DNA from: a virus
Length of the DNA stretch: 64,000 nt
Direction: 5' to 3' (one strand)
IMG/VR virus record: IMGVR_UViG_3300046542_000074
Span: 37,376-101,375 of that record
The position numbers were made by a program, and so were the translations under genes. Below are positions 7,834 through 61,313 of this stretch, piece after piece (the stretch's first letter is position 1; the number at the start of each line of letters is the position of its first letter). The notes under the pieces are model-generated. The model was not told where the DNA came from. It ran no database searches and saw only the letters and a list, made by a program, of their open reading frames with translations.

Positions 7834-8220
7834 ATGGCTAAACTATTCAAGATTGCTGTAGCACCAACTTTCAAATCCACTGTTAAAGTTCCTCGTGTTG
7901 GTGGTGATCCTCTCGACGTACAGTTCGAATTCAAAACTATGGATCGTAAGCAACTGGCTAAAGTGTACGGTGCTTGGGAGAAAGCAACTAAAGAAATGAT
8001 CCAAGAAGCAAATGATAAAGAGTGGAGTTTGGAGGAATGGGCAGACTCTGAGATTGCCCTGCAAGTAAGCCAACTGAAAGATGTTGTGGTTGGTTGGAAC
8101 TTTGATGATGAGTTCAATGACGAGAATATTGAAGCTCTGGTAAGTTCCAGCATCTCTGTTACTTCGGCTATCACAGAAGTTTATAACGAAGCTTACGTCA
8201 AGGCCAAGTCGGGAAACTAA
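7834..8220 (+). CDS. Tail assembly chaperone, short form (gpG-like)
   Basis: The 128-residue protein lies between the tube and tape measure genes, the place of lambda G. It is mostly helical and acidic towards the C-terminus. The last sense codons read through GGGAAAC immediately before TAA, which is a classic -1 slippage site. Most ribosomes should stop here and yield the short form. AAGGAG precedes the ATG. Confidence 0.88.
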   Translation: MAKLFKIAVAPTFKSTVKVPRVGGDPLDVQFEFKTMDRKQLAKVYGAWEKATKEMIQEANDKEWSLEEWADSEIALQVSQLKDVVVGWNFDDEFNDENIEALVSSSISVTSAITEVYNEAYVKAKSGN

Positions 8221-8555
8221 TCGACGTTGCCCATGCCATGTACGAACCTGACACCAGCGAGAAACAAGCTGCCATGTTTGGTTTGAACCTTTCTGAAATC
8301 CCTAATGAAGTTATCGAAGTGTGGGATATCAACTGGCCAGCCTTTAGTGTGTTCTATGCAATGAATACACAATGGCGAATGGCGGGTATGGGTGGCGAGA
8401 GAACAGGATTAGATTACAACGCAATTCCTGTTGTGGCTAAACTTCTCGGCTTGAAGTCCAAACAAACACAAGAGATATTCTCCAGTATTCAAGTTATGGA
8501 GAATGAAGCCTTAACCACAATGAGGGAAAGCACACCAAATGCCAACGATAGCTGA
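7834..8555 (+). CDS. Tail assembly chaperone, frameshifted long form (gpGT-like)
   Basis: A -1 shift at 8211-8217 joins the 128-residue chaperone to a downstream frame through codons for LIDVAHA and then a 105-residue domain, giving about 240 residues (segments 7834-8217 and 8217-8555). The downstream frame has an ATG at 8238 but no ribosome site before it, so translation by frameshift is the better explanation. In lambda the long form recruits tail tube subunits to the tape measure. The 3' end overlaps the tape measure start by 17 bases. Confidence 0.85.
8211..8217 (+). promoter_or_regulatory. Programmed -1 ribosomal frameshift site GGGAAAC
   Basis: The heptamer fits X XXY YYZ in the phase needed by the zero frame (G GGA AAC) and the next codon is TAA. 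Shifting back one base opens the downstream chaperone frame exactly. The lambda G-GT site is GGGAAAG. Confidence 0.85.
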
Positions 8556-11500
8556 GTTAGAAATTAGGGTAGACAGTACCCCAACAGAGAAAGCAACCAA
8601 AGCGTTGAATGACTTTGCCAGTGCCGCTGATAAAGCTGCTCAAGCTGGTAAGGCTAAAGTTACAGTTGACAGAGAAGCTGCTGCTGCAAACGAGATCACC
8701 GCTAAGTCTGAAAAGAACCTTTCTGAAGTTATCGACTACCAAGCTCGTAAGTTAGCAACACTGAAAGAACAACGACGTGAACTTAACAAGTCTGACATGC
8801 GCAGTACTGCACCAGAAGAGTTCCGTAGACTTAACAGTATTCTGGATGCAAACATTGCTCTGGTGTACAAACAAGGCACCGCAAAGGATGTTCTCAACGC
8901 GAAGGAAGAACGAGGCATTGAAAAGCTCAATGCTGTTGTAGCTGGTTACGACAAAGTTTCCAAAGCTACCCTTGAGTATGACCGGAACATTGCTGCACTG
9001 AATAAGGGTTATGACAATGGCCTTCTTAGTACAGTAGCCTACAATAAAGCTCTTGCTGACCAAGCTGCACAACTTGAGAAAGTTAAAGCTGCTCAACCGG
9101 GCAGTAGCCAGTCTGTTGCTGCTGGCTATGAGAATGCTTTGAACAAGCTTGTTCCATATCGTGTGGAGATGACAAACCTTGCTGCTCAGGAAAAGATTCT
9201 CCAACAACAACGTGATGCGGGTAGTGTTAAAACTCCGGCACAGATTGCTGAATGGGATCGTGCAACCGCTGCAATTGCCTCTCAGCGTAAAGAGTATGAG
9301 CGACGAATCAAAGCTGGTAATGAGATGGGTATCTCTGCCAAACAAGAGCAAGCTGCTCTCCGTGGACTTCCAGCACAATTCACCGACGTTGTTGTTTCCC
9401 TGCAAGGTGGTCAAAATCCACTGACAGTATTGCTGCAACAAGGTGGACAAGTTAAAGATATGTTCGGTGGTATTGTTCCAGCCTTCAAAGCTGTAAGTAC
9501 TGCTGTTCTCTCTATGATCAGTCCGCTCACTGTTGGTGTAGCTGCAATTACTGCTCTTGGTGTTGCTGCCTATCAGGGCAGTCAAGAGTTCACCAACCTG
9601 CAAAGATCATTGGTCAAAGGTGGTGGGTTCTCTGGAGCCACACTCTCAGACCTTTTGGTATTCCAAACAACATTGGATAAAACAGCAGGAACTGCCAGTG
9701 ATGCAGCCGAAGCGTTAACACTTCTTGAAGCCTCCGGTAAGATATCTAAAGAAGTTTTTGTGAGCATTGGTGCTGCTGCTATCCAAATGCGGGAAGCCAC
9801 GGGTCAGTCTATTCAAGACACTGTAGAGGACTTTGCATCTCTTGGTAAAGACCCTGTAGACTCTGCTGTTCGATTGAACGAGAAGTATAAGTTTCTTACT
9901 GCTTCTGTACTTGCTCAAGCTGAAGCATTGGCTAGAGCCGGGGAGGAACAAAAGGCTACAATCCTCCTGCAAAGCCAAATGTCAGATGCTGCCTCTGATT
10001 CAGCAGAAAGGATCATCGATAAAGCTGGTGGTATCGAACGTGCTTACCGTGGGGTAAAGGGTGCCATATTAGAAACTTGGAATGTTCTTAAGGATCTAGG
10101 TCGTACCGATGATGAGTACAGACTTGCTGATCTTACTGCAAGAGAGGCAGCACTAAAAGCTGAACTTGATAGGAACAAGAATGGAAACTTTCTTGATAAA
10201 GCCATGTCTCGCCCAGATGTCTTGGTGGAAGCTAAGCTCAAAGAAACACAGACAGCTATTGCCGAACTTAAGAAGAAGTCAGACAAGGAAGCTTCTGAGG
10301 AAGCCATCAAAAATGCGAGGATTGAAGCTGATAGGAAGGCTGCGGTTTCTCAAGATTACATCCGACGTATTGCTGCTGGGTACGGAACTGCATCTCAGAA
10401 GGCACAGGCAGAGTTAGACAAGATTGACCAGAAACAAAAGGAAGTCTTGGATGCTGGTGTGCCAAACAAAGACCAAATGGATTTGTATACCAAAGCACGA
10501 TCTGTAGCTCAAACCAATCTTGATAAGGCAAAGGAAGCAGAAGCTGCTGCGAACAAACCTAAGACTGATCCAGCTCAAACTCAAGAAGTCGTTGAAGTTA
10601 AGAGTAATCTAACTGCTCTGGAAGCTGAATACGATGGTTACTACAAACGTGTAACTGCACTAGGCAAAGCCAACATCGTGACTCAGGAAGCTACAGTTGC
10701 GAGCCAACAAGCCATTCTTGAGGCTGAAAAGAAGGCTATCTCTGAGAACTATGATGCACAGATTAAAGCCATTCAAGCCCTACAAGGTAAGAAGACTAAC
10801 TCTGCTGCTACCAACATCTCTCTGGATAACCAAGTAACTAAAGCTGAAGCTGCCAAGGTGGCTGCACTTGAGAAACTGAACACTCGTCAAGAAGTGCTGG
10901 CTGATCAAGAGAAAGGCAGACTGTCACAACGTTCTGCTGCTATTGCCGCTTATGCAGATGCAATGCAACTCCAAGTTGATAACATTGTTGAACAAGGAGA
11001 ACGCCAAGCTAAGGCTGTAGGTCAAGGTGCTCGACAAGGCAAGTTGAATGAAGACCTCCGTGAGAATGATCGTAACTTCGAAAAGAACACACTCTCTCTT
11101 GCCAAGCGTAAAGATGAGATGGACCCAATCGAATATGCCGCTAATCTGAAAGCTGCTACACAAGCACACGATGATATGCGCAATGCCATCATCAACAATG
11201 ATCGCCAGATTGCTGCTGCTGAAGCTGATTGGACTAATGGTGTTACTCGTGCTTATGAGGATTATGCAGATAAGTCTCGTGACCTTGCCAGTACTGTGGA
11301 AGGTGCTATTACGGGTGCATTCAGTTCGATGGAAGATGCAATGGCTGAGTTTGCCACAACCGGTAAACTTAACTTCCGCAGTCTTGCCAACAGTATCATC
11401 AGTGACATGGCTAAGATCGCTGCTAAGCAAGCCACAAGCTCAGCTCTATCCAGTTTGTTTGGTATGGCACTTGGTGCTTATGGTGGTGGAGCTAACGGCT

Positions 11501-38921: not shown

Positions 38922-40538
38922 TTGAAGGCCATTACAAACTGGAGAAACGCAACAGTATTTGACGCGGAGTCTGATGGATTCCTTGATGTTGCAACTAAGC
39001 TACATGTACTGTCGTATCAAATGCAAATGAAGGGTGTGTCAAGCTTTAATGCTGCACTACAAACAGAGCGTATCAAGGCTTTGTTCATCTGGCATATGGA
39101 TAATAAAGTACCTGTCGTCGCACACAATGGTATTTGTTTCGACATTCCACTGATCGAGAAACTTCTTGGACTCGACCTGACAAACTTGATGGTGATCGAT
39201 ACCCTTGCTATTAGTTGGTATTTGAATCCCGAGAGGAACTTGCATGGTCTGGATTCCTTTCACGAGGATTACGGTATTGCGAAACCAAAGGTACAAGATT
39301 GGGATAACCAACCGTATGAAGTTTACGAGAACCGTTGCCAAGAAGACGTTAAGATCAACAAAGCACTTTGGGAAGACCTGAAGTCTCGGTTGATTGACAT
39401 GTACTCACGCGCCAAAGTTGAGATTGATCTTGGTAAAGTGGGTGGCAAGCGTATGTTCCCAACTGAGGTCATTTACATTGACCAGTACAAGGGGAGTACT
39501 GTAGACGAAGCAATTGATCGTATCCTGACATTCCTGATGTTCAAGATGGATTGTGCCCGTCTGCAAGAGCGTACTCAGTGGGAAGCGGACGTTGTTTCAT
39601 TGACTGCTTCACAAGAAAAGCTGAGTAAGATCGTACTTGAGGCAAAGGCTAAGCTTGAGTCTGTAATGCCTAAAGTACCTAAGTACACGTTGAAAAAGAA
39701 GCCAGCAGACCCATATAAGATGAGTGGTGACTTGTCTGTTCATGGTGAGAAGTGGTTTAAGGTATTGGCTCAGTTCGAAGCTAAAGAGGTTGATGACCTC
39801 GGCAACTTGATGGTTAAAGAGTCCAACAAACCAAACGAACTTAAGACCTTGAAAGAGTATGAACCACCTTCTGCATCGTCACCTTTGCAGATTAAGTCTT
39901 TCTTGTTCTCCAAGGGTTGGGTGCCGTTAACTTTCAAGTATGAGAAAGATGAGGAACTGTTTGCAGCATGGGTTGCCAGTAAACCAAAGGAAGGCGCTCA
40001 ACGGGGATCTTGGACTGCTTGGAAAGCTAAGAAGCCACCAGAGCGAGAGATTCCACAAGTAACTAAAGCAGGCGAAGACGGAAAAGAGTTGTGCCAATCT
40101 GTCTTGGACTTGGCCGAAGAAATTCCAGAGATTATGTTGTATGCCGATTACAACGTAGCGAAACACCGTCTTGGTGTAGTGGATGGATTCCTTCGTGACT
40201 TGCGGGATGGTAAGTGGTTGCAAGCTCGTATTGGTGGTTTCACTAACACATTGCGAGTACAACATCGGGAACTTGTGAACTTGCCGGGAGTTGATAAAGC
40301 TCACGGGGAAGACATTCGTGGGGGTTTGATTGCTGGATTCAAGAAAATTCTTCTTGGTTCTGACATGTCAAGTCTTGAGGATAGGATTAAAATTAACTTC
40401 ATGATGACACACGACCAAGTTTATGTGGAACAGCTTAGTGAGAAGGGGTACGACCCACACCTAGCAATGGCTGTGGTTGCTGGCATGATTACAGAAGACG
40501 AGAAGGAGTTCTACAAATGGTACAAAGCGAACCACTAA
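38922..40538 (+). CDS. DNA polymerase family A, N-terminal part (exonuclease to motif A)
   Basis: The 538-residue protein has a 3'-5' exonuclease with FDAESDG (about 12-18), VAHNGICFD and YENRCQEDVKIN, and a polymerase palm motif A, LGSDMSSLEDR (about 478-488). It stops at EFYKWYKANH, before motif B. The rest of the polymerase is encoded at 41070-41660, after an inserted HNH gene. The start is TTG 38922, preceded by AGGAG. The two parts probably assemble into a working enzyme. Confidence 0.9.
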   Translation: MKAITNWRNATVFDAESDGFLDVATKLHVLSYQMQMKGVSSFNAALQTERIKALFIWHMDNKVPVVAHNGICFDIPLIEKLLGLDLTNLMVIDTLAISWYLNPERNLHGLDSFHEDYGIAKPKVQDWDNQPYEVYENRCQEDVKINKALWEDLKSRLIDMYSRAKVEIDLGKVGGKRMFPTEVIYIDQYKGSTVDEAIDRILTFLMFKMDCARLQERTQWEADVVSLTASQEKLSKIVLEAKAKLESVMPKVPKYTLKKKPADPYKMSGDLSVHGEKWFKVLAQFEAKEVDDLGNLMVKESNKPNELKTLKEYEPPSASSPLQIKSFLFSKGWVPLTFKYEKDEELFAAWVASKPKEGAQRGSWTAWKAKKPPEREIPQVTKAGEDGKELCQSVLDLAEEIPEIMLYADYNVAKHRLGVVDGFLRDLRDGKWLQARIGGFTNTLRVQHRELVNLPGVDKAHGEDIRGGLIAGFKKILLGSDMSSLEDRIKINFMMTHDQVYVEQLSEKGYDPHLAMAVVAGMITEDEKEFYKWYKANH

Positions 40539-41083
40539 CGTTGTATGGGTTCACAAAAGAAGAGTTCCTTGGTTTCACCTATGTGGATGTAACTTCGCCG
40601 TCGGGTTTGAGGTGGGCGAAGGGCGCCAGTTCAACGGCAACAAAGGGAAGTGTTTTCGGCACATACTCCCGTGCTGTAAAGCACCCATGTTGGCGAGTGA
40701 AGTACAATGGAGTTCCCATGGTGGTGGCAAGGGTGTTGTATTTTCTGACAAAAGGAATCCCACCAGTTGGTTTTGTAGATCACAGGAATGGGGATACTTA
40801 TGACCATAACCACGATAACTTAAGGGATGTCGTGATTAAGGTTAACTGCGAGAACAGGGTTGTGCTAAATGAAACAGGCGTACCCGGTGTTTATTTTTCT
40901 GATGGAAGGTGTCCGTCTTGGAGATGCCAAGGTGTTTCTGCTGATGGCGTTAGGTGGGTGAAAAGTTACTCAGTAAATAAATACGGCTATGAAAATGCCT
41001 TGTCCCTTGCCAAAAAGCACCGTCTTGGTAAAGAGGAAGAAAACAACACACAAACTAGGAGAAAGACACTTGTTGACACTTGA
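40517..41083 (+). CDS. HNH-AP2 homing endonuclease splitting the polymerase
   Basis: The 188-residue protein has an HNH motif, VDHRNGDTYDHNHDNL (about residues 89-104), and an AP2-type DNA-binding domain (GVPGVYFSDGRCPSWRC, then a helix). It starts inside the polymerase N-part with AAGGAG upstream and ends inside the start region of the polymerase C-part. Its coding frame fills nearly all of the insertion, which leaves no space for a group I intron core, so it acts as a free-standing mobile gene. Confidence 0.88.
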   Translation: MVQSEPLTLYGFTKEEFLGFTYVDVTSPSGLRWAKGASSTATKGSVFGTYSRAVKHPCWRVKYNGVPMVVARVLYFLTKGIPPVGFVDHRNGDTYDHNHDNLRDVVIKVNCENRVVLNETGVPGVYFSDGRCPSWRCQGVSADGVRWVKSYSVNKYGYENALSLAKKHRLGKEEENNTQTRRKTLVDT

Positions 41084-49878: not shown

Positions 49879-50102
49879 AAGAAGCACTGATTAAACTGAT
49901 TGCTGGCCTTGAGGGTCAGTACAAGCATGAAAGCAACTTCTACAACGCTTACATGGGTTTGGACGATAACGATGGTGATATCAGCAACTGGTGTAATAAC
50001 CACTTCGAAGACTCTGTTGAAATGGGTTTTGGTGTAGGAGAACGCTCAGCTACATTTGATATCATTGAACAACTTAAACAAATCGTAGGAGAACACGCTT
50101 GA
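49875..50102 (+). CDS. Small hypothetical protein
   Basis: The 75-residue protein starts with GTG 49875, overlapping the preceding stop. It is acidic and helical. Its stop overlaps the dUTPase start. No family is recognised. Confidence 0.58.
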   Translation: MKEALIKLIAGLEGQYKHESNFYNAYMGLDDNDGDISNWCNNHFEDSVEMGFGVGERSATFDIIEQLKQIVGEHA

Positions 50103-50533
50103 AAGGCTTGAAAGTAAAACTGAAGAAGCTGCACCCAAAAGCAATTACCCCAACTTATGCTACCGATGGCAGTGGTTGTTTCGATATCTACAGCCTTACA
50201 TCAGGCGAAGTAACACAGACCCTTACTGTTGATACCGGGTTGGCCTTTGAAGTGCCAGAAGGCCATGTGATGCTTGTGTTCTCTCGTTCTGGACACGGAT
50301 TTAAGAACAATGTACGGCTGGCAAACTGTGTTGGTGTGATTGATGCAGATTACCGGGGAGAGCTGAAAGTAAAACTAACTTCTGACACTGAGTGGAATTC
50401 GTTCTACGTCAATGTAGGTGATCGAATTGCTCAAGGTATGGTGTTGCCAATCGAGCAAGTGCAGTTTGAGGAAGTAGAAGAGTTGTCGGATACAGAACGT
50501 GGTGCGGGCGGTTTTGGCTCTAGCGGGCAATAA
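50099..50533 (+). CDS. dut: dUTPase
   Basis: The 144-residue protein has the trimeric dUTPase motifs: GSGCFDIY, SRSGHGFKNN, GVIDADYRGE, RIAQGM and the C-terminal RGAGGFGSSG. It converts dUTP to dUMP, which feeds the ThyX reaction and keeps uracil out of DNA. The start is TTG 50099, with AGGAG upstream. Confidence 0.92.
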   Translation: MKGLKVKLKKLHPKAITPTYATDGSGCFDIYSLTSGEVTQTLTVDTGLAFEVPEGHVMLVFSRSGHGFKNNVRLANCVGVIDADYRGELKVKLTSDTEWNSFYVNVGDRIAQGMVLPIEQVQFEEVEELSDTERGAGGFGSSGQ

Positions 50534-50543
50534 GGAGAATAGT

Positions 50544-51416
50544 ATGAAAGTTGAGTTCCAAGTAGGCGACATGGTTGAGGTAATCACAAACACATTTGAG
50601 GGTAAACACCCTCGTGCAGTGGCTAAGGGTACACGGCTAAAAGTCGTAAAAGAGCTACCACCAGAGGATGATGGTTGGTGGATCAGTAAGAATGGAGTGA
50701 AGCCTTATAACATGAATGTAAATCGTCATGACTTCAAACTTGTAAGTACAGGTACGCAGCTTCTGGATGTTGAGGTAGGTGATACACTCAAGTGTGTTTG
50801 TGTTGACCACTCCAATTGGTACAAAGTTGGTGATGAGGAAGTTGTTCGCACTAAGTTGTACGCTAAAGCTCCCCATAGTTACTGTGTTAATGTTGAGTCC
50901 AACCCCTCTAATAGTGTTTGGGTTGATCTGAAGCACTTCCGGGTCATTAAGAAGAAAGCTGATGAAATGGCTGACCCTGTAAATGTTGTAAACATCACTG
51001 TGAATCCAAGTGATAATACCCACCCTGATAAGGGCTTTAGTGAAGAAATTGGTAAGTTTATTGCGGACAAGTACAAAGCTGTACTTAGCAAGGATGCTGG
51101 CATGTTCCGACCTGTATTGGAAGAACGTAAAGTTGGTAAAGTGAGTATTGAGTTGTTTGATACAGGCTTCCCGAATGCTGTGTGGGAAATCAGCAAGCTG
51201 ATGTCATGGGCTGCCGAGAACAAAGGGTACAAACCTAATGACTGGAAGAGTCTGCCTAATGCAGAAGTAAGCCTGCCAGCAGCGGCAAGTCGTCACCGTA
51301 TTAAACCTTTGTTGGGTGAGAAGTATGATGATGAAAGTAAGTTGCTGCATAAAGCACACGAAGCTTTCAACGTACTTGCAGAACTTGAGTTGATGTTGAC
51401 TGGAGTTATCAAGTAA
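50544..51416 (+). CDS. SH3-like plus DUF5664 (dNTP diphosphohydrolase-like) protein
   Basis: The 290-residue protein has two SH3-like barrels (about 5-62 and 75-135) and a C-terminal domain with FPNAVWEISKLMSWAAENKG, LPAAASRHRIKPLLG and an ending helix, which resembles the DUF5664 dATP/dGTP diphosphohydrolase N-terminal family. It sits beside dUTPase and ThyX, in line with a nucleotide role. AAGGAGAATAGT precedes ATG 50544. Confidence 0.68.
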   Translation: MKVEFQVGDMVEVITNTFEGKHPRAVAKGTRLKVVKELPPEDDGWWISKNGVKPYNMNVNRHDFKLVSTGTQLLDVEVGDTLKCVCVDHSNWYKVGDEEVVRTKLYAKAPHSYCVNVESNPSNSVWVDLKHFRVIKKKADEMADPVNVVNITVNPSDNTHPDKGFSEEIGKFIADKYKAVLSKDAGMFRPVLEERKVGKVSIELFDTGFPNAVWEISKLMSWAAENKGYKPNDWKSLPNAEVSLPAAASRHRIKPLLGEKYDDESKLLHKAHEAFNVLAELELMLTGVIK

Positions 51417-51444
51417 GATTAAGTAAGTATCAAGTAAATAAAGA

Positions 51445-51473
51445 TTGCAATATAACGAGTGTTCCTGTAAAAT
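51445..51473 (+). promoter_or_regulatory. Sigma70-like promoter for the thyX-nrd genes
   Basis: TTGCAA (51445-51450) and TAAAAT (51468-51473) are 17 bases apart. An inverted repeat covers the -10 box. Confidence 0.65.
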
Positions 51474-51481
51474 GGACACTC
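51458..51481. promoter_or_regulatory. Inverted repeat over the -10 box, possible operator
   Basis: GAGTGTTCC and GGACACTC flank the -10 region with eight bases between the arms. This is the layout of a repressor site, but it could also be a leader hairpin. Confidence 0.45.
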
Positions 51482-51505
51482 AACCCCGAATAATAGGAGA
51501 GTAAA

Positions 51506-52219
51506 TTGTCCCAAGTTTCCAACGTTGTAGAATTCGACCAAGAGTACCTGTCGTTCATTAAGACCCGTCTGATTGGCATCACCACTCCCGTAGTTGATTT
51601 TATCCCCGATAGTGAAGGCATCCTCAGTTTCTGCGCCCGTGTAAGTAGCCCACAAAACCAAGACAACTTCGAAACAGCCAACAAACTTCTGGCGTATTGT
51701 GTCCGTCAAAGTCACTGGTCAGTCTTCGATATGGTGAACGTAGTTGTTGAAGTTGAAGTTCCTCGTGACATTGCTCGCCAGTTTCTTCGTCATTCGTCTA
51801 TCAAGTTCCAAGAATTCAGTCAGCGTTATGCTGAAGCCCAAGAGTTTGTGATTCGTGAAGCTCGCCTGCAAGATAGTAAGAATCGTCAGAACAGTATCGA
51901 CCTTGATGTGTTGGTGTATGAAGACGCTCAGATGTTGCAACGAGAGTGGAACAAACGACAACGCGAAGTTATCGACCTTGTTAAGAAGAACTACCAATGG
52001 GCAATTGATAACGATATCGCTAAAGAGTGTGCCCGTGTTGTACTGCCAGAAGGTAACACCATGAGTTACTTGTACGCAAATATGACAGTCCGTCAACTAA
52101 TCACTTACTTGAAAGTTCGTGATGATGTAGGTGTAACACAGAAAGAGCACGTTGATATGGCTCGTAAGATTCGTGTGGTTGCTTTGGATAAGCTGCCAAG
52201 TATTGAGGGTCTGGTATGA
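51506..52219 (+). CDS. thyX: Flavin-dependent thymidylate synthase
   Basis: The 237-residue protein has the ThyX fold signature RQFLRHSSIKFQEFSQRY (about residues 91-108) and QSHWSVFDMVNV before it. It makes dTMP from dUMP with FAD and methylene-tetrahydrofolate. It lies next to dUTPase and the reductase genes. The start is TTG 51506, with AGGAG upstream. Confidence 0.92.
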   Translation: MSQVSNVVEFDQEYLSFIKTRLIGITTPVVDFIPDSEGILSFCARVSSPQNQDNFETANKLLAYCVRQSHWSVFDMVNVVVEVEVPRDIARQFLRHSSIKFQEFSQRYAEAQEFVIREARLQDSKNRQNSIDLDVLVYEDAQMLQREWNKRQREVIDLVKKNYQWAIDNDIAKECARVVLPEGNTMSYLYANMTVRQLITYLKVRDDVGVTQKEHVDMARKIRVVALDKLPSIEGLV

Positions 52220-52644
52220 CAGAAGTAAAACAAAAGAAACAAGAAACATGTGAATACACTCAGTACCTCACACAACTGGATTTGGAACATCACCCGGACT
52301 TTGCTGAAGCTTGGAAGTCTCAAGACCAAACTAAGTTTGAGAAAGTTCTAAATGATATGGGTGTCGATCTAAGTTACGGTTATGAGATTAGTGTGTGCCA
52401 GTGCCGGAGTCGTATCTCACAGAAAGTTGAAACAGGTATGCGTATCAGCTTCCGTGAACGCTCCGACCAATACTGGCTGAAGAACGGAGCTGCCGTAGAA
52501 GACATCATTGAACTAACCCCACCGGGAATTGGTCGTTTGGGTATGATCAACGCCTTGAACAGCAGCCGTAATGTCGAGGAAGAACAACGACTGAAAGTGG
52601 CAATTGATTTTGATGAATTGGAAGAGAAGGAAAAGGCGAAGTGA
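52216..52644 (+). CDS. Hypothetical protein
   Basis: The 142-residue protein begins MTEVKQKKQETCEYTQYL. It has two Cys in SVCQCRSRIS and ends with a charged helix. It overlaps thyX and the redoxin gene by four bases each, so it is part of the nucleotide operon. No family is recognised. Confidence 0.58.
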   Translation: MTEVKQKKQETCEYTQYLTQLDLEHHPDFAEAWKSQDQTKFEKVLNDMGVDLSYGYEISVCQCRSRISQKVETGMRISFRERSDQYWLKNGAAVEDIIELTPPGIGRLGMINALNSSRNVEEEQRLKVAIDFDELEEKEKAK

Positions 52645-52883
52645 AGATTGAATTGTTTGGTGCGGATTACTGCGCAGGGTGTAAGGTTGTTGAAAAAGTT
52701 CTAACTCAACGTGAGGTTGCATTCGACAAACTCAACATTGACAACAGTGAGGTGATGGAACAAGCCATGCAACTGGGTATACGACAAATCCCCGTGACAG
52801 TGTTCACGTTTGAAAATGGTCGTGAAACAGTGGTTGGTGCTTCGAAAGAAGCGATTGACCGTATTATTGAAATTGTGCAGTAA
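52641..52883 (+). CDS. NrdH/glutaredoxin-like redoxin
   Basis: The 80-residue protein has the thioredoxin fold with active site CAGC at about residues 11-14 and the cis-Pro segment QIPVTVF. It would supply electrons to the ribonucleotide reductase encoded next to it. It starts with GTG 52641, overlapping the preceding stop. Confidence 0.85.
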   Translation: MKIELFGADYCAGCKVVEKVLTQREVAFDKLNIDNSEVMEQAMQLGIRQIPVTVFTFENGRETVVGASKEAIDRIIEIVQ

Positions 52884-52892
52884 GGAGTAACC

Positions 52893-53915
52893 TTGAGTAA
52901 GCCAGAAAAGAAGTACCTCAGTCAGATTGAAACACCAACCGATTCATATGTAACACACTACCCTTGGGCAACTGAGATGGCGATTCAGCAACAGTCATTG
53001 TTCTGGCCTGCCGAAGAACTGGGTGTAGATGAGGATGAACAAGACTTCCGAACTAACCTTCTTGGAGGTGAACTACACGGTATCCTGACAGCACAGTCTA
53101 TCCTGACTCAATACGAGTTGCTGATTGGTGGTGAAGAACTTTGGGGCGGTAAGATTGCTAAGCTGTTCCCTCGTCCAGAGATTCAACGGATGTGTGCGTG
53201 CTTCGCTAACGTAGAACTTGGTTCACATGCACCGTTCTATGCTTTGGGCAATGAAGTGCTGGGTAAAGCGACAGACGAGTTTTACACTCAATGGAAACAA
53301 GATCCAGTCTTGGCTGAGCGTATGAAGTTCATTAGTGAGTGTGCTGCCAGTGATGATGCTTTGGAAGTTACTGCTGCACTGGCGTTCTTGGAAGGTGCAA
53401 TTCTGTTTAGTATCTTTGGTTACTTCAAAGGTTTCAACAGCCGTGGTTACAACCTGATTTCCCACTTTGTCAGTGGTATCGATGGCAGTACAAAAGATGA
53501 GAACTTTCACAGCATCGCCTCGGCTAACTTGTTCCGTCAATGTAAGTCTGAGCGTACAGAGTTGGGCAATCACAGTGCTCGTCGTGAGAACGCACTGAAT
53601 AAGAAAATCGATAAGATTGCTTTGGACGTGTACAACCACGAACTGCTGATCATTGACAAGATGTTTGAAGTTGGTACTAACCGAGTGGTTAAGAAGCAAG
53701 AGTGCATTGAGTTCCTGCAAGATCGTTTGAACGTAGTGTTGAATCGCCTTGGTCGTCCTCCTATGTTTGAACGTGTACAAGGTGTGATTAGTAAGTGGTT
53801 CTACCAGCAACTGAGTACAGTAAAGATTCCTGACTTCTTTGCAGCAACACAACTCCAGTACACACGTAATTGGAAGAAATATAAACTAGGTTTTAAACGA
53901 GATTTGGTACAGTGA
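52893..53915 (+). CDS. nrdB: Ribonucleotide reductase class Ia, beta subunit
   Basis: The 340-residue protein has iron-ligand motifs ANVELGSHAPFY (with the likely radical Tyr at its end), FLEGAILFS and DENFHSI, as in viral NrdB. It houses the di-iron-tyrosyl cofactor and works with the alpha subunit. The start is TTG 52893, with AAGGAG upstream. An HNH-AP2 gene overlaps its stop. Confidence 0.92.
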   Translation: MSKPEKKYLSQIETPTDSYVTHYPWATEMAIQQQSLFWPAEELGVDEDEQDFRTNLLGGELHGILTAQSILTQYELLIGGEELWGGKIAKLFPRPEIQRMCACFANVELGSHAPFYALGNEVLGKATDEFYTQWKQDPVLAERMKFISECAASDDALEVTAALAFLEGAILFSIFGYFKGFNSRGYNLISHFVSGIDGSTKDENFHSIASANLFRQCKSERTELGNHSARRENALNKKIDKIALDVYNHELLIIDKMFEVGTNRVVKKQECIEFLQDRLNVVLNRLGRPPMFERVQGVISKWFYQQLSTVKIPDFFAATQLQYTRNWKKYKLGFKRDLVQ

Positions 53916-54436
53916 TTCACCCTCTTAAATCTGAAATCATGGAAAGGTTTGAGTATGTAGACGGTAAAATCCTCGTAAAGAAAGCCGGACAATGGAAAGG
54001 TAAAGTTGGTGAGGAAGCTGGTAGTGTGAGGGGTGATGGTCGTAGAATAATTCAAATAAAAGGTGTTAGGTTATTCACGCACCAAGTTGTTTGGTTGATG
54101 TTCAATGATGACTTGCCAGATGAAACGATTGACCATAAGAATGTTGATTGCTCTGCTAATGAAATCGAGAATCTACGACCAGCTACAACCACGGAACAGC
54201 AAGGCAACAAGAAGGTTCAGAGTAACAACACCACCGGGTACAAAGGTGTAAGTTATTCTGACACCAGAAACAAAACTAAACCTTGGCGAGCCTCCATAAC
54301 AGATCAAGGTAAAGCTGTACACCTTGGGTACTTCGCAACAGCAGAGACTGCTGCTAAAGCATACGACATTGCTGCGTTAGAAAAGTTTGGGAATTTTGCA
54401 CTATTGAATTTTAAGGAGTATATTGATGTTGTTTGA
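53912..54436 (+). CDS. HNH-AP2 homing endonuclease between nrdB and nrdA
   Basis: The 174-residue protein has an HNH part with TIDHKNVDCSANEIENLRP (about 71-89) and an AP2 DNA-binding domain (GYKGVSYSDTRNKT...AVHLGYFATAETAAKAYD). The GTG at 53912 overlaps the nrdB stop; ATG 53939 is an alternative. The end of its gene holds the AAGGAG of nrdA. It looks like a free-standing mobile gene inserted in the reductase operon. Confidence 0.85.
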   Translation: MIHPLKSEIMERFEYVDGKILVKKAGQWKGKVGEEAGSVRGDGRRIIQIKGVRLFTHQVVWLMFNDDLPDETIDHKNVDCSANEIENLRPATTTEQQGNKKVQSNNTTGYKGVSYSDTRNKTKPWRASITDQGKAVHLGYFATAETAAKAYDIAALEKFGNFALLNFKEYIDVV

Positions 54437-56162: not shown

Positions 56163-56196
56163 AAGCCCTGCACCTAACCGTGTGGGGCTTTTCTTT
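56163..56196 (+). terminator. Terminator after nrdA
   Basis: AAGCCCTGCAC pairs with GTGTGGGGCTT (with two G-T pairs) across loop CTAACC, then TTCTTT. Confidence 0.85.
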
Positions 56197-56211: not shown

Positions 56212-56240
56212 TTGACAGGGTGTTCTGGTTCACGCATAAT
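56212..56240 (+). promoter_or_regulatory. Promoter for the TelA-VWA region
   Basis: TTGACA (56212-56217) and CATAAT (56235-56240) are 17 bases apart, just after the nrdA terminator. Confidence 0.75.
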
Positions 56241-56273
56241 CCTCCCAACAAAATGAAACAAAGGAATTGACAG

Positions 56274-56567
56274 ATGATCCTAAACATGCAACAAGACTCC
56301 ACACGTAAATGGATCGCTTGTGTTGTGGCAGCCAGCGATGGTGTTCTCAGTAATAAGTTTAACCAGATGGTGAATGCTCCCGGTTGGAGTGATGAGACAA
56401 TTGACTTCCGTGTCACAATGAATGGTGTAGAATTCACCAATCTGGATGACATGTTTGATCGTCTTCACAAGCACTACACAGAACAGAATAATAAGATTCG
56501 TGAGTTAGAGGAAGCTCTGATTGACACTCCCTTTGATATCAAGGATACTGACGATGAACCAATTTGA
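56274..56567 (+). CDS. Hypothetical protein
   Basis: The 97-residue protein begins MILNMQQDSTRKWIACVV and has a coiled-coil end. AAAGGAATTGACAG precedes the ATG. It is the first gene of the TelA transcription unit. No family is recognised. Confidence 0.6.
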   Translation: MILNMQQDSTRKWIACVVAASDGVLSNKFNQMVNAPGWSDETIDFRVTMNGVEFTNLDDMFDRLHKHYTEQNNKIRELEEALIDTPFDIKDTDDEPI

Positions 56568-56588
56568 AGAACTAAAGGAGAAACAACA

Positions 56589-56867
56589 ATGAGCATTAAC
56601 GTACAAGACGTATTCACTAAAGTAATGAACGCTGGTATTTACAGCGAAGGCCAACAAGAGCTGATGTGTCACGCACTACAGCAGGCTGCTTACGATGGTG
56701 TTATCACCGAAGCTGAGTGGTGTGCAGCACGAGGTGAGATTAACGGATACCTCCGTGGTTTTGGTTCTCTTGGTGGTTTTCTGGATAAGAATGGTCATCC
56801 GTTCTACTTCACGGACCGATTGGCTATCTACTTGGATTGGGCCAACAAACCAACCTTTAAGAAGTGA
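56589..56867 (+). CDS. Hypothetical protein
   Basis: The 92-residue protein begins MSINVQDVFTKVMNAG and is helical first, then with aromatic residues (NGHPFYFTDRLAIYLDW). AAGGAGAAACAACA precedes the ATG. No family is recognised. Confidence 0.6.
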   Translation: MSINVQDVFTKVMNAGIYSEGQQELMCHALQQAAYDGVITEAEWCAARGEINGYLRGFGSLGGFLDKNGHPFYFTDRLAIYLDWANKPTFKK

Positions 56868-56877
56868 GTAGAAGCAA

Positions 56878-57210
56878 ATGAGTATAGTATTACCAGATTT
56901 CTTGGAAGACCTGATTAAAGCTGGCATCCAAGTCACGATTGAACAAAGCGACAAGTATGCGGATGGTTATTACTTTGACCTGAACCTTCAATCCAAGAGT
57001 CACATGCACTTGTTCCGTCACGAAGGTGGACAGTGGCGAGTGGACATGCGATATGGGGAAGAGTATGTCATTGAGGAATTCAGTGATTTGTTGTATTCCG
57101 CTAAGAAGGGAATGCACGGACGTGATTTTATCCACTACAAGTGGGAACAGTTGCTTGTTAAGCACGAATACCTTAAAGTACACATCACCACAACCAAGAG
57201 CTATTCCTAA
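56878..57210 (+). CDS. Hypothetical protein
   Basis: The 110-residue protein begins MSIVLPDFLEDLIKAG and has a beta-rich middle. Its ribosome site is weak (GAGTAGAAGCAA). Its stop overlaps the next start. No family is recognised. Confidence 0.58.
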   Translation: MSIVLPDFLEDLIKAGIQVTIEQSDKYADGYYFDLNLQSKSHMHLFRHEGGQWRVDMRYGEEYVIEEFSDLLYSAKKGMHGRDFIHYKWEQLLVKHEYLKVHITTTKSYS

Positions 57211-57527
57211 TGAACAATGACAAACCAAAGATCCTAATACTTGGTTTTGAACCCGGTGTAAGTTATCACGACATCTGGAGCCATACTTCTCGTGGTAAGT
57301 CAATGGTGTTTGGTATGCTGAAAGGTCTTGAAGCTGAAGGTCTGGTTGAACTCGTGTATGATATCGAGGCATACGAACCAAACTTTGACAAGCTTGAGGA
57401 ACGCTGCACTCAGTTCTGGTTTGATGAGGCTACAAACCTCCAAGAATCGTTTGACATGCACACACCACTTACGTACAATTCGCTTCGTAAGCCTAAACCC
57501 TACTACCGACAAAAGGAGCGGTATTGA
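57210..57527 (+). CDS. Hypothetical protein
   Basis: The 105-residue protein begins MNNDKPKILILGFEPGVSY, a Rossmann-like opening, but has no further motif I recognise. It ends two bases before the TelA ATG. Confidence 0.58.
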   Translation: MNNDKPKILILGFEPGVSYHDIWSHTSRGKSMVFGMLKGLEAEGLVELVYDIEAYEPNFDKLEERCTQFWFDEATNLQESFDMHTPLTYNSLRKPKPYYRQKERY

Positions 57528-57528
57528 C

Positions 57529-58659
57529 ATGAGTGTATTCCAACGAGCATCAGCTCAACCCTCAGTGTTGAAAGAAGTGAATGTCGGTTACGCAACTGAC
57601 ACAAACCCAGTCAACCTAAGCCCACTGAAGCCAAGTGTATTTGGTACACAGATGGTGGCTCCAACACAACTCCGTCAACTGACTGTCGTGTCTGATGATG
57701 ACATCGATAAGATTGGTGAAAGTGTTAGCCGTGAGATTGGGCAAACCACTCAAAAGATTATTGACAAGATGGCAGTGGGCAAGTTCGATGAGCTTGGTGC
57801 TATCCTGACAGCGATTAATGGTGAAGTGGATAAACTTGACCCAGCTTCGTTGCAGAAAGGTGGTGTTGTAGGTTGGTTCCAATCCAACTTCACAAACATG
57901 AAAGCAAAGTTGACAATGCGCCTCAAGTCTGCACAAGATGTCTTCACTGATCTTGAGGGTAAGATTGGTAATCACATCACTGTACAGCAAGAGTGGGTGC
58001 GTGATTTGGAACTGTTGTACAATGAAAACTATGCTCACTACCAAAAGATCAACGAAGAGAGTGTATCAGCTCAATCTCTTATTGACTATGTTGTGAATCA
58101 ACTGCAAACTTGGCCTGAGATTGATCTGAATGACAATACGGCTGCCATGCAAGTGCAGATGAAACGAGACGCTGAGACTCGCTTGAACCGTCTTCGTATG
58201 AAACTTGACAATCTTGGTCGCTTGCGTGTAATGACGGAAACCAACAGTCCAAAGATTCGCCAGCAACAGGATACAAGTCGGATGACTATCAGCACGTTGA
58301 AAGATGTGATTAGTCAGACGATCCCGATTGTCAAGATGGAATTTGCTATGTTCTTGCAAACACTGGACGTACAGAAGAGTGTAAGCCTGACAAATGAAGT
58401 ACGAAATCTTGCAACAAAGACGTTGACACAGGGTGCTGACAGCGCTAAGATAGCTGCCATCGAGAGTGCTAAGGCAATGAATACTTCGGTAATCACCACT
58501 GACACTCTTCAAACAATTCGTGCTCGTATGCTGGAAACAGTTGTCGAGGTTAAGCGGATTGAGAACACAGCTCAAGTGCAACGTGAGACTGATGCAAAAC
58601 TGATTCAAGATGGGCAAAAAAGTTTGTTGACAGCACTACAGCAAATGAATACAATTTAA
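57529..58659 (+). CDS. telA: TelA-like tellurite/toxic anion resistance protein
   Basis: The 376-residue, all-helical protein resembles TelA/KlaA. It has a Met- and Glu-rich core, helices with many Arg residues (RLNRLRMKLDNLGRLRV) and a C-terminal coil. ATG 57529 follows AAAGGAG; the longer reading from 57328 belongs to another gene's overlap. TelA proteins go with Ter stress systems in bacteria. Here it stands before a VWA, a TerC and a TerD protein, which supports one functional set. Confidence 0.78.
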   Translation: MSVFQRASAQPSVLKEVNVGYATDTNPVNLSPLKPSVFGTQMVAPTQLRQLTVVSDDDIDKIGESVSREIGQTTQKIIDKMAVGKFDELGAILTAINGEVDKLDPASLQKGGVVGWFQSNFTNMKAKLTMRLKSAQDVFTDLEGKIGNHITVQQEWVRDLELLYNENYAHYQKINEESVSAQSLIDYVVNQLQTWPEIDLNDNTAAMQVQMKRDAETRLNRLRMKLDNLGRLRVMTETNSPKIRQQQDTSRMTISTLKDVISQTIPIVKMEFAMFLQTLDVQKSVSLTNEVRNLATKTLTQGADSAKIAAIESAKAMNTSVITTDTLQTIRARMLETVVEVKRIENTAQVQRETDAKLIQDGQKSLLTALQQMNTI

Positions 58660-58681
58660 CACACCAACCAAGGAGCATGTC

Positions 58682-58888
58682 ATGAAAGAACACCAACAGA
58701 TGTTCTACTTTGATGCAGCTAACACCCAACCAAAGTTTGAAGACGCAGACAAGAACCACAAAGTTCTTGCCTACCATGTTGATGGTTTCTGGATGGAAGC
58801 TCGTTACACACAGGTACACCAGTACTCTGAATTCACCCACTGGATGCAGATGCCAAAAGCACCATCCGATAAAGACTTTACTTACTAA
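58682..58888 (+). CDS. DUF551-like small protein
   Basis: The 68-residue protein has FWMEARYTQVHQ...THWMQMPKAPS, the Trp-rich pattern of DUF551. Such proteins are common in phages; their role is unknown. AAGGAGCATGTC precedes the ATG. Confidence 0.68.
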   Translation: MKEHQQMFYFDAANTQPKFEDADKNHKVLAYHVDGFWMEARYTQVHQYSEFTHWMQMPKAPSDKDFTY

Positions 58889-58902
58889 CTAAGGAGAAAT
58901 AA

Positions 58903-59547
58903 ATGGAACTGCTGAATCTGAACAAAACTCTGGAACTGAACCTCGTCAAAGCCGGTATCACTATCGTGCCAAAGATGGAAGTCAAGATGGCACTGGACAT
59001 TTCTGGTTCGATGGACGATGAAATTCGTTGCGGTTGGGCACAGGATACAGTAGACTTGCTGTTGGTTGCAGCGATGAAGTTTGACGACAACGGTAAGATG
59101 GAATTTGGTACATTCAATACCCAATTCAAACAACTGGCTGATGTCACTGAAGCTGATGCTGGTCGTTACATCCGTGACAAAGGCATTCGTGCAAATGGTG
59201 GTACTTGCTTTGCTGATGCGATCAAGGATCTGAAAGGTGGCTTCGCCAAGAAGGGTTTCTTTGGTTTTGGTGCTTCCAAACCACAACACCCGACTCACAT
59301 TGCACTGATCACTGACGGTGATAACTCCGACAAGCACGAGTTTGAAGCACAACTTCACTCTCTGGAAAACACCTTTGTGCAAATCATTGCCATCGGTACT
59401 GGTGTGAACAAGCGCTACATTGATCAAGTTGTGCAGCAATATAAGAACGTTGGTGTGGTGTACCTGCCTAACCCTCGTGAAGTAACTCCAGATGCTTTCT
59501 ATGAGAAACTTCTGAATGACAAGTTCAAAGCTTTCATCGGCGCATAA
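58903..59547 (+). CDS. VWA-domain protein, TerF-like
   Basis: The 214-residue protein has a von Willebrand A domain with MIDAS residues DISGSM (about 32-37), a Thr in GGTCFADAI (about residue 99) and TDGDNSD (about 139-145), which bind a metal ion. Its first 20 residues (LNLNKTLELNLVKAG) resemble the start of the TerD protein at 60374. In bacterial TerF, a TerD domain is fused to a VWA domain, so this may be a shortened relative. The protein may bind partners in the stress response. Confidence 0.8.
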   Translation: MELLNLNKTLELNLVKAGITIVPKMEVKMALDISGSMDDEIRCGWAQDTVDLLLVAAMKFDDNGKMEFGTFNTQFKQLADVTEADAGRYIRDKGIRANGGTCFADAIKDLKGGFAKKGFFGFGASKPQHPTHIALITDGDNSDKHEFEAQLHSLENTFVQIIAIGTGVNKRYIDQVVQQYKNVGVVYLPNPREVTPDAFYEKLLNDKFKAFIGA

Positions 59548-59554
59548 ATAACAG

Positions 59555-59583
59555 TTGACACGGTAAGGGCTAGTCATTAGAAT
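59555..59583 (+). promoter_or_regulatory. Sigma70-like promoter for terC-terD
   Basis: TTGACA (59555-59560) and TAGAAT (59578-59583) are 17 bases apart, about 50 bases before the terC start. Confidence 0.78.
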
Positions 59584-59629
59584 AGCCCACAAGCCAAAAG
59601 GCTAGAACCCAAACAAACGGAGAAATAAA

Positions 59630-60319
59630 TTGGAATACGTACAAACCCTGCTGAGCACCATTGACTACTCAGCCATCCTCAAGATCGTAATGATTGACTT
59701 GCTATTGGGTATCGACAACGCTGTTGTTATCGCTCTGGCATGTGCAACACTGGCAGTAAGTGTACGAGGTAAAGCAATCTTTATTGGTACAGCAGGTGCT
59801 GTTATCCTGCGAGCAGTTCTTCTGGTGTTTGCCACCTTCTTGCTTGGTGTGCCATACTTGAAACTTGTAGCCGGTGCTTACCTCTTGTGGATTGGTTACA
59901 GTCTGCTGACAGCAAGTGATGATGGACATGAAGTGGAACAGAAAGATACAATCTTTGGTGCAGTATGGACTATCATTGTAGCTGACTTCATGCTCTCTCT
60001 GGATAACGTAATGGCAGTAGCCGGTGCAGCAAGTGGTACAGAACACAGTACAGTGTATGCAATTGCCGGTATCGTCTTCAGTATTCCAGTGATCATTTAC
60101 GGTGCTAAGTACCTGACCAATTGGATGGATAAGTACCCTGTAATTATCTGGATTGGTGCAGCAATGCTCGGTGTTGTAGGTGCTGAAATGTTCGTAAGTG
60201 ATCCACTGATGGCTGACTATGGGATTAACCATATCGTGGCTAAAATTGTAGGTGGTAGTGCAGTTGTAATCCCTGCATTCGTTGTTAAGAAGCTTTACAA
60301 GAAACCCGTGACGGCGTAA
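59630..60319 (+). CDS. terC: TerC-family membrane protein
   Basis: The 229-residue protein has about seven membrane helices and the two Asp-containing motifs of TerC, GIDNAVVIAL (about 27-36) and SLDNVMAVAG (about 123-132). TerC proteins act with TerD and are linked to tellurite resistance and manganese export. The start is TTG 59630, with CGGAGAAATAAA upstream. Confidence 0.88.
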   Translation: MEYVQTLLSTIDYSAILKIVMIDLLLGIDNAVVIALACATLAVSVRGKAIFIGTAGAVILRAVLLVFATFLLGVPYLKLVAGAYLLWIGYSLLTASDDGHEVEQKDTIFGAVWTIIVADFMLSLDNVMAVAGAASGTEHSTVYAIAGIVFSIPVIIYGAKYLTNWMDKYPVIIWIGAAMLGVVGAEMFVSDPLMADYGINHIVAKIVGGSAVVIPAFVVKKLYKKPVTA

Positions 60320-60373
60320 GCTGTCACTCCCAACCAAACATAAAGAACCAAATAAACCTTTAGGAGAAACAAA

Positions 60374-60952
60374 ATGGAGATGCTGAACTTGTCTAAGACT
60401 ACTATGATGCTTGACCTGACCAAAGCTGCACCGGGCCTGACCAAACTGCGTGGCGCACTTAACTGGGACGTACACCCACTGAAAAACAACGGACATGAGT
60501 TTGACTTGGACATTTTCATGTTCATCACTGGTGGCGGTAAAATTGGTTCTGCAAGTGACGTAGTGTTCTTCAACAACCAAAATGCTTACAACGGTGCAGT
60601 AGTGTACCCTCGTGATAACCGTAGCGGCGCTGACGTTGCTGGACAAGATGACGAAGAAGTGTTTGTTGAAATCGCTAAGATTCCAGCCAACAAAGATAAG
60701 GTTGAACACTTTGTCTTCCTGCATGATGCACAGGCTCGTGGTCAAGACTTCTCGGCAATTTCTGGTGGTAGTTTCTGCCTGTATGACCAGAACAACAAAC
60801 TGATTCAAGAGTACAAACTGCAACAATTCGTGAATGGTACTGTTCTGCATGTTGGTACTTTGACCCGGTTGTCTGGTGATTCGTGGGGCTTCCAACCAGT
60901 AGGTGAGGCTAACACCCTTGATCCAAACCAAGTAATGCAAGCGTTCATTTAA
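60374..60952 (+). CDS. terD: TerD-family stress protein
   Basis: The 192-residue protein is a full-length TerD: FDLDIFMFITGGGKIG and VFFNN (about 39-60), VVYPRDNRSGADVAGQDDEE (about 76-95) with calcium-binding acidic residues, and VEHFVFLHDA. AGGAGAAACAAA precedes the ATG. TerD proteins bind calcium and join the Ter complexes. A strong terminator follows. Confidence 0.9.
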   Translation: MEMLNLSKTTMMLDLTKAAPGLTKLRGALNWDVHPLKNNGHEFDLDIFMFITGGGKIGSASDVVFFNNQNAYNGAVVYPRDNRSGADVAGQDDEEVFVEIAKIPANKDKVEHFVFLHDAQARGQDFSAISGGSFCLYDQNNKLIQEYKLQQFVNGTVLHVGTLTRLSGDSWGFQPVGEANTLDPNQVMQAFI

Positions 60953-60970
60953 CACATAGCCCTACCTAAC

Positions 60971-60996
60971 AGCCCTCCCCAACCGGAGGGCTTTTT
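60971..60996 (+). terminator. Terminator after terD
   Basis: AGCCCTCC and GGAGGGCT form a stem with loop CCAACC, then TTTT. It is a near copy of the terminator at 33125. Confidence 0.9.
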
Positions 60997-61023
60997 CGTG
61001 TCTGAAATAAATGAATAAAGTTG

Positions 61024-61052
61024 TTGACAGAGGTAGTTGCCAGTGTCATAAT
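61024..61052 (+). promoter_or_regulatory. Sigma70-like promoter for the last operon
   Basis: TTGACA (61024-61029) and CATAAT (61047-61052) are 17 bases apart. The -10 and spacer resemble the promoter at 56212. Confidence 0.75.
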
Positions 61053-61082
61053 TCTCGGCACAAACAAGGAGATACAACTGAA

Positions 61083-61313
61083 ATGAGTAAGCTTAGTTAC
61101 AAAGAAATTGATCAGGCTCACGATGATATTGCTGTTGAAGACTTCCCTGATTTTGATCTACAATTCATTCCAGCAGAACACGATGAATGTGTGGAAGAAC
61201 CTTATGACTACTCACAAGATGACTGGTTGTTTGACGACTATTACCACGACTTGGAACCAGAATACGATGATCGTTATTATGATCCATACCCATACGAAGG
61301 AGAATACCTGTGA
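61083..61313 (+). CDS. Highly acidic Tyr-rich protein (DNA mimic candidate)
   Basis: The 76-residue protein begins MSKLSYKEIDQAHDD and contains 26 Asp/Glu and 11 Tyr, with only three Lys/Arg, giving a net charge near -23. Such proteins can imitate DNA and inhibit DNA-binding host enzymes. ATG 61083 has AAGGAG 12 bases upstream; the upstream frame from 61011 is not credible. It is the first gene after its own promoter. Confidence 0.68.
   Translation: MSKLSYKEIDQAHDDIAVEDFPDFDLQFIPAEHDECVEEPYDYSQDDWLFDDYYHDLEPEYDDRYYDPYPYEGEYL

Follow-up and report, generated by a model that had tools for sequence, protein, structure and literature searches.

A 64-kb stretch of viral DNA (hereafter the window; bases 37376-101375 of the 101,375-base IMG/VR virus record IMGVR_UViG_3300046542_000074) carries, at 56212-60996, a cassette in which TelA, a TerF-type VWA protein, TerC and TerD are encoded close together and in that order. 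This cassette is an abbreviated Ter module on an Otagovirus-like phage, and both its families and its gene order are established. It has previously been described in relatives and, hence, is not new, and its earlier identification from the bare sequence is correct. What looks new and worth following up is a co-variation between short N-terminal LxLxK peptides (tags) of the VWA protein and TerD. Although plasmids, pathogens, and phages commonly carry Ter genes, the role of these genes is still unclear. A four-gene module whose order is kept across unrelated phages and bacterial replicons is a minimal and easily deleted test case for distinguishing a superinfection block from envelope metal management, and the co-variation of the tags offers a concrete starting point for finding out which of the proteins are in contact.

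All four Pfam matches exceed the curated cut-offs, as does the NCBIfam match TIGR03717 of TerC (Table 1), and the profile searches thereby bear out the sequence-only reading, which had assigned the proteins to the Ter families without database searches. PHROGs families exist for all four proteins; therefore, phage versions have been catalogued before. TelA starts at ATG 57529, preceded by an AAAGGAG ribosome site, and most searches were run with a start six bases downstream of this ATG. The metal ion-dependent adhesion site (MIDAS) of the VWA protein is complete (D32-x-S34-x-S36, T101, and D138) and invariant in 12 phage proteins with identity down to 24%; its structure model matches solved VWA structures, and the protein carries no fused TerD domain. 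TerD belongs to a calcium-binding family. Its residues D44, D46, D81, and E94 are kept in 13 proteins, L45 and G90 are likewise invariant across diverged phages, and two solved TerD structures, 2kxt and 3ibz, can be aligned with it. For TelA, a low-confidence model predicts long, scaffold-like helices.

Phage VWA and TerD proteins each start with a pair of LxLxK motifs separated by a few residues, and in the 101-kb record only these two plausible genes start with such a double tag, the other match being a 62-codon open reading frame (ORF). Thirteen elements were compared, with the Otagovirus group represented by the window alone. In 11 of the 13, VWA and TerD have the same first three residues in tag 1, as against 1.7 with random pairing; this number was never reached in 100,000 shuffles, which ignore ancestry, for a motif that was noticed post hoc in elements that are partly related. 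When one element per lineage is taken, seven of nine match at these residues (P 0.00006). Residue 1 of tag 1 matches in 13/13 elements, including the rare F/F pair of AciJM_313, and the signal of tag 2 is weaker (3/13, P 0.018). Among the four elements fetched after the idea had been noted (L040, L042, L047, and L050), residue 1 matches in all four and the three residues in three. Several Otagovirus relatives, left out of the count, show a crossed tag order (LDLTK-LNLEK in VWA and LNLSK-LDLTK in TerD); therefore, even the close relatives of the window are not all matched tag for tag.

The matching effect is not seen in the bodies of the VWA and TerD proteins, nor at the N-termini of TelA (z 0.07). 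The real tags give a z of 5.5, as against 1.4 for letter-shuffled tags and 1.8 for residues 27-51, so composition accounts for the match in part only. Recent gene conversion is disfavoured as a cause since identical residues share the codon at only 27 of 52 positions, and translation-start effects may contribute. Similar repeats precede the VWA domain in bacterial proteins, including TerD-VWA fusions, and the tag is not part of the confidently predicted fold in the VWA model, where residues 1-12 have a predicted local distance difference test score below 50. It is tentatively proposed that the double LxLxK is an assembly code by which VWA and TerD would bind one another, for instance through exchange of beta-strands, or occupy the same partner. 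Such a code would evolve in concert within each mobile element, and, if this proposal is true, each Ter complex would be kept specific to its own element and separate from host complexes and from those of rival phages.

The closest relatives of the cassette proteins are those of Otagovirus-type Pseudomonas phages, with identities of up to 74% for TelA (over 87% of its length), 64% for VWA, 77% for TerC, and 72% for TerD. The order TelA-VWA-TerC-TerD is the same in all 11 Otagovirus-type cassettes compared with the window, and the genes are, therefore, not scattered in relatives. Several unrelated phage groups carry the order TelA-VWA-membrane protein-TerD: it is also present in Rhizobium phage TM30, Pseudomonas phage Cygsa01, Caulobacter phages CcrColossus and CcrC1, Brevundimonas phage Domovoi, and an IMG/VR phage (L040). 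Two Burkholderiaceae replicons, the conjugative plasmid pBVIE01 of Burkholderia vietnamiensis and p1 of Caballeronia grimmiae, keep the order of the window on a bacterial replicon, but with DUF475 in place of TerC. Since the same order is found across phages and these two replicons, the four proteins probably act together. The order is altered or parts are missing in Klebsiella phage KP13-16, Escherichia phage phiWec179, Acinetobacter phage ME3, Acinetobacter AciJM_313, and Lysinibacillus phage LysYB1, and a divergent TelA was not found in ME3 and AciJM_313 by profile comparison. In two Stephanstirmvirinae phages, proteins of about 290 amino acids (aa) are encoded upstream of TelA (L013, 7978-8856; L014, 4478-5347); neither protein has a match in Pfam, and BLAST finds no similarity between the two.

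The slot between VWA and TerD is thus filled by TerC or, in other elements, by DUF475. The Dolichocephalovirinae phages CcrColossus and Domovoi share a homologous gene and RtcB downstream and differ exactly in this slot, where the former has an annotated DUF475 protein and the latter a TerC protein by Pfam, barely alike by BLAST. Since the TerC model also picks up DUF475 proteins, those of ME3 and TM30, TerC and DUF475 look functionally interchangeable from their sequences.

Among known systems, phiPsa374 and other Otagovirus-type phages are the nearest, with all four families in an identical order at roughly 53-77% protein identity, the closing hairpin, and promoter-like sites before TelA, VWA, and TerC. 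Warring et al. (2022) listed terC, terD, terF, and telA in phiPsa374 and described this set as incomplete and of unknown function (PMC9796965). In the phiPsa374 record (L010, NC_023601.2), the TerD homologue is gp11 and the protein numbered gp12 is the one in the membrane slot, and the published labels, terC for gp11 and terD for gp12, look swapped relative to the record. For Pyxisvirus phages, the presence of terC was pointed out in a 2024 paper (PMC11256456). Abbreviated Ter operons of jumbo phages were reported by Iyer et al. (2021), who proposed them to be weapons against superinfecting phages and viewed TelA and VWA as sub-membrane structures (PMC7824862). The Caulobacter jumbo phages of that study have TelA, VWA, a TerC-like membrane protein, and TerD in the order of the window, but the membrane protein of CcrColossus is annotated as DUF475, whereas that of the window is a TerC of the YjbE subfamily, and the shared proteins are only 18-31% identical. 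No near-identical phage was found in the GenBank collection at megablast level with the cassette DNA as query, and a single-sequence TerD scan of IMG/VR found nothing; IMG/VR scans based on broad alignments were discarded as too divergent.

TerD, a TerF-type VWA protein with MIDAS, TelA, and a TerC-like protein, adjacent and in a conserved order, make the cassette an abbreviated Ter system of the phage type. A complete system would have terZABCDEF or biosynthetic genes alongside, and the cassette does not. The set had been taken as near-complete in the sequence-only reading, a description that does not stand: no TerA/B/E/Z paralogue and no phosphoribosyltransferase (PRTase), HAD, or nucleotide-synthesis gene was found in 56274-61313, the remainder of the 101-kb record being incompletely annotated, and the literature calls such sets abbreviated (PMC7824862) or incomplete (PMC9796965). 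The complete systems of plasmid R478 (terZABCDEF), phage ME3, and the Pseudomonas FeN3W plasmid share the TerF-type VWA protein with the window, and R478 and ME3 also TerD and a TerC or DUF475 protein; they are set apart from the cassette by further genes, either TerA/B/E/Z or those for PRTase, HAD, and ATP-grasp proteins. No PADLOC defence model matched any of the nine cassette proteins.

The cassette is dense in promoter-like sites. Five of the eight 11/12 consensus matches of the window fall in 56.2-61.05 kb (4.8 kb), all on the + strand, as against 0-3 such sites (mean 1.3) per 64 kb in Markov-simulated sequences. Two promoters, at 56212 and 59555, and a closing terminator at 60971 had been claimed previously; the sites and the terminator-like hairpin are present, but the count of two is too low, as 11/12 sites at 57451 and 58627 also lie in the block. 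When 12 Otagovirus-type cassettes, the window included, were searched for sites of at least 10/12 within 130 nucleotides (nt), such a site was found before TelA in 11, before TerC in all 12, and directly upstream of VWA in eight, with a background rate of 0.06 per 130 nt, although these counts are not independent because the 12 phages are related. In three further cassettes, including the window, the site precedes a small gene between TelA and VWA. A G+C-rich hairpin with a T-run, read by eye, lies 3' of TerD in 12/12 cassettes. These promoters and terminators are candidate sites, as consensus matches do not prove activity. The site at 61024-61052 lies inside the mechanically called start of ORF 61011-61313, the real start of which is probably an ATG near 61083 behind AAGGAG.

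The favoured reading, to which a probability of about 45% is given, is that the set forms a membrane-linked, metal-binding complex protecting the envelope of the infected cell, most plausibly against superinfection. TerC (or DUF475) would anchor the set in the inner membrane and move or bind divalent metal; TerD and the MIDAS-bearing VWA protein would use their matching N-terminal LxLxK tags to dock with one another or with a shared partner; and TelA, a helical protein, would act as scaffold. Expressed in infected cells from promoters of its own, the complex may stiffen the envelope or balance envelope metals, and the infected cell would become refractory to other phages and bacteriocins, with envelope and metal stress also blunted. 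We infer the complex, its docking, and its function from family identity, gene order, invariant metal residues, recurring promoter-like sites, and tag co-variation. Ter loci confer phage inhibition and colicin resistance, for which terC, terD, and terZ are required (Whelan 1995, cited in PMC12054061), and loss of terC in Klebsiella leads to larger plaques and lower Zn/Mn resistance (PMC12054061). The blocking of rival phages, also suggested in the sequence-only reading, is plausible and was already in print as a hypothesis, since Iyer et al. proposed it; protection of the host cell is possible. Several points weigh against this reading. The effect of terC on phages in K. pneumoniae is modest, the wild type still being lysed by 8/8 phages (PMC12054061), and since the TerC of the window is YjbE-type and not that of R478, the R478 phenotypes may not transfer. 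Components deemed necessary for tellurite resistance are missing from the set (PMC9796965). The low-confidence TelA model has no significant match among solved structures, and the literature yielded no experimental work on a phage Ter set.

The main alternative is metal housekeeping, in which TerC would export Mn or deliver it to membrane or exported enzymes, with TerD, VWA, and TelA sensing metal, so that the cell and its metalloenzymes are sustained during infection and rival-blocking is beside the point. The TerC profile match is to YjbE, a putative metal transport subfamily, none of the metal sites has been lost, the Bacillus TerC proteins MeeF and MeeY metalate Mn enzymes at the secretion channel (PMC10550928), and the ter genes of K. 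pneumoniae are induced by Zn and Mn (PMC12054061). Yet this alone leaves unexplained why TelA, VWA, and TerD travel with TerC or DUF475 on mobile elements, and no Mn riboswitch or other Rfam family was found at the cassette; overall, it appears rather unlikely. The family names, and a proposal made for P. syringae phages (PMC11256456), would suggest instead an auxiliary set that makes the host, in soil and plant habitats, more tolerant of toxic oxyanions or other xenobiotics, which is improbable given the missing Ter components, the judgement of the phiPsa374 authors that resistance is unlikely (PMC9796965), and the little time that a virulent infection leaves for a tolerance benefit. It is similarly doubtful that phage TerD, VWA, and TelA poison or replace subunits of a phage-inhibiting host Ter system, as the cassette encodes a whole, working-looking module with a membrane part and intact metal sites rather than truncated decoys, although host Ter loci do inhibit phages (PMC12054061) and matching tags could admit phage proteins into host complexes. 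Genome-contig scans, which did not amount to a genus-wide survey, found neither a bacterial donor of the cassette nor host Ter content.

Table 1. Coordinates of the cassette genes, N-terminal tags, candidate regulatory sites, and neighbouring small genes in the window, and of the DUF475-containing clusters on two bacterial replicons.
Feature	Position	Strand	Basis
TelA, 376 aa	57529..58659	+	Pfam PF05816 E 7.5e-21; PHROG 5890 2.1e-106
TerF-type VWA protein	58903..59547	+	Pfam vWA-TerF-like PF10138 2.9e-16; PHROGs 2.1e-61
TerC membrane protein, YjbE subfamily, TTG start	59630..60319	+	PF03741 4.4e-42; TIGR03717 4.1e-56; PHROGs 3.4e-62
TerD	60374..60952	+	PF02342 2e-29; PHROGs 1.3e-46
VWA double tag LNLNK...LNLVK, codons	58912..58950	+	reading of sequence
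TerD double tag LNLSK...LDLTK, codons	60383..60424	+	reading of sequence
Terminator-like hairpin, parts nrdA block from cassette	56163..56190	+	hairpin match
Promoter-like TTGACA-17-CATAAT (11/12), before small-gene block	56212..56240	+	consensus match
Promoter-like site (11/12), before TelA	57451..57479	+	consensus match
Promoter-like site (11/12), before DUF551-like gene and VWA	58627..58655	+	consensus match
Promoter-like site (11/12), before TerC	59555..59583	+	consensus match
Terminator-like hairpin, closes cassette	60971..60992	+	hairpin match
Promoter-like site (11/12), past closing terminator	61024..61052	+	consensus match
Small ORF, 97 aa, no family	56274..56567	+	family searches
Small gene, PHROG 35632	56589..56867	+	PHROGs 5.2e-26
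Small ORF, PHROG 11295	56878..57210	+	PHROGs 1.7e-13
Small ORF, 105 aa, MarR-like helix-turn-helix match below cut-off (E 0.0062)	57210..57527	+	Pfam
DUF551-like small gene, variable slot between TelA and VWA	58682..58888	+	Pfam 22.5 bits, cut-off 22
TelA-VWA-DUF475-TerD cluster, L042 (Burkholderia plasmid)	7880-11483		
TelA-VWA-DUF475-TerD cluster, L047 (Caballeronia replicon)	7855-11448		

The small genes at 56274-57527 and the DUF551-like gene had been suggested to belong to the cassette, which probably holds for one of them. Since homologues of the PHROG 35632 gene (56589-56867) sit between TelA and VWA in phiPsa374, Pyxpy02, and an IMG/VR element (L004), this gene is probably cassette-associated; its family is also present in at least three records with P. 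aeruginosa as host, a host absent among the Ter matches listed. For the genes at 56274, 56878, and 57210 and for the DUF551-like gene, no counterpart was seen next to the cassette in any relative that was examined. The window differs from the phiPsa374 group in having a DUF551-like gene in the gap between TelA and VWA and the PHROG 35632 gene upstream of TelA.

Upstream of the cassette lies a nucleotide-metabolism block (50099-54400) with a dUTPase (PF00692) and a dATP/dGTP diphosphohydrolase N-domain (PF18909) by Pfam, and ThyX, glutaredoxin, and ribonucleotide reductase by eye only. ORFs 53912-54436 and 40517-41083 have HNH and AP2 domains, the match of the second being weak; the position of the former between nrdB and nrdA, both read by eye, suggests a homing endonuclease.

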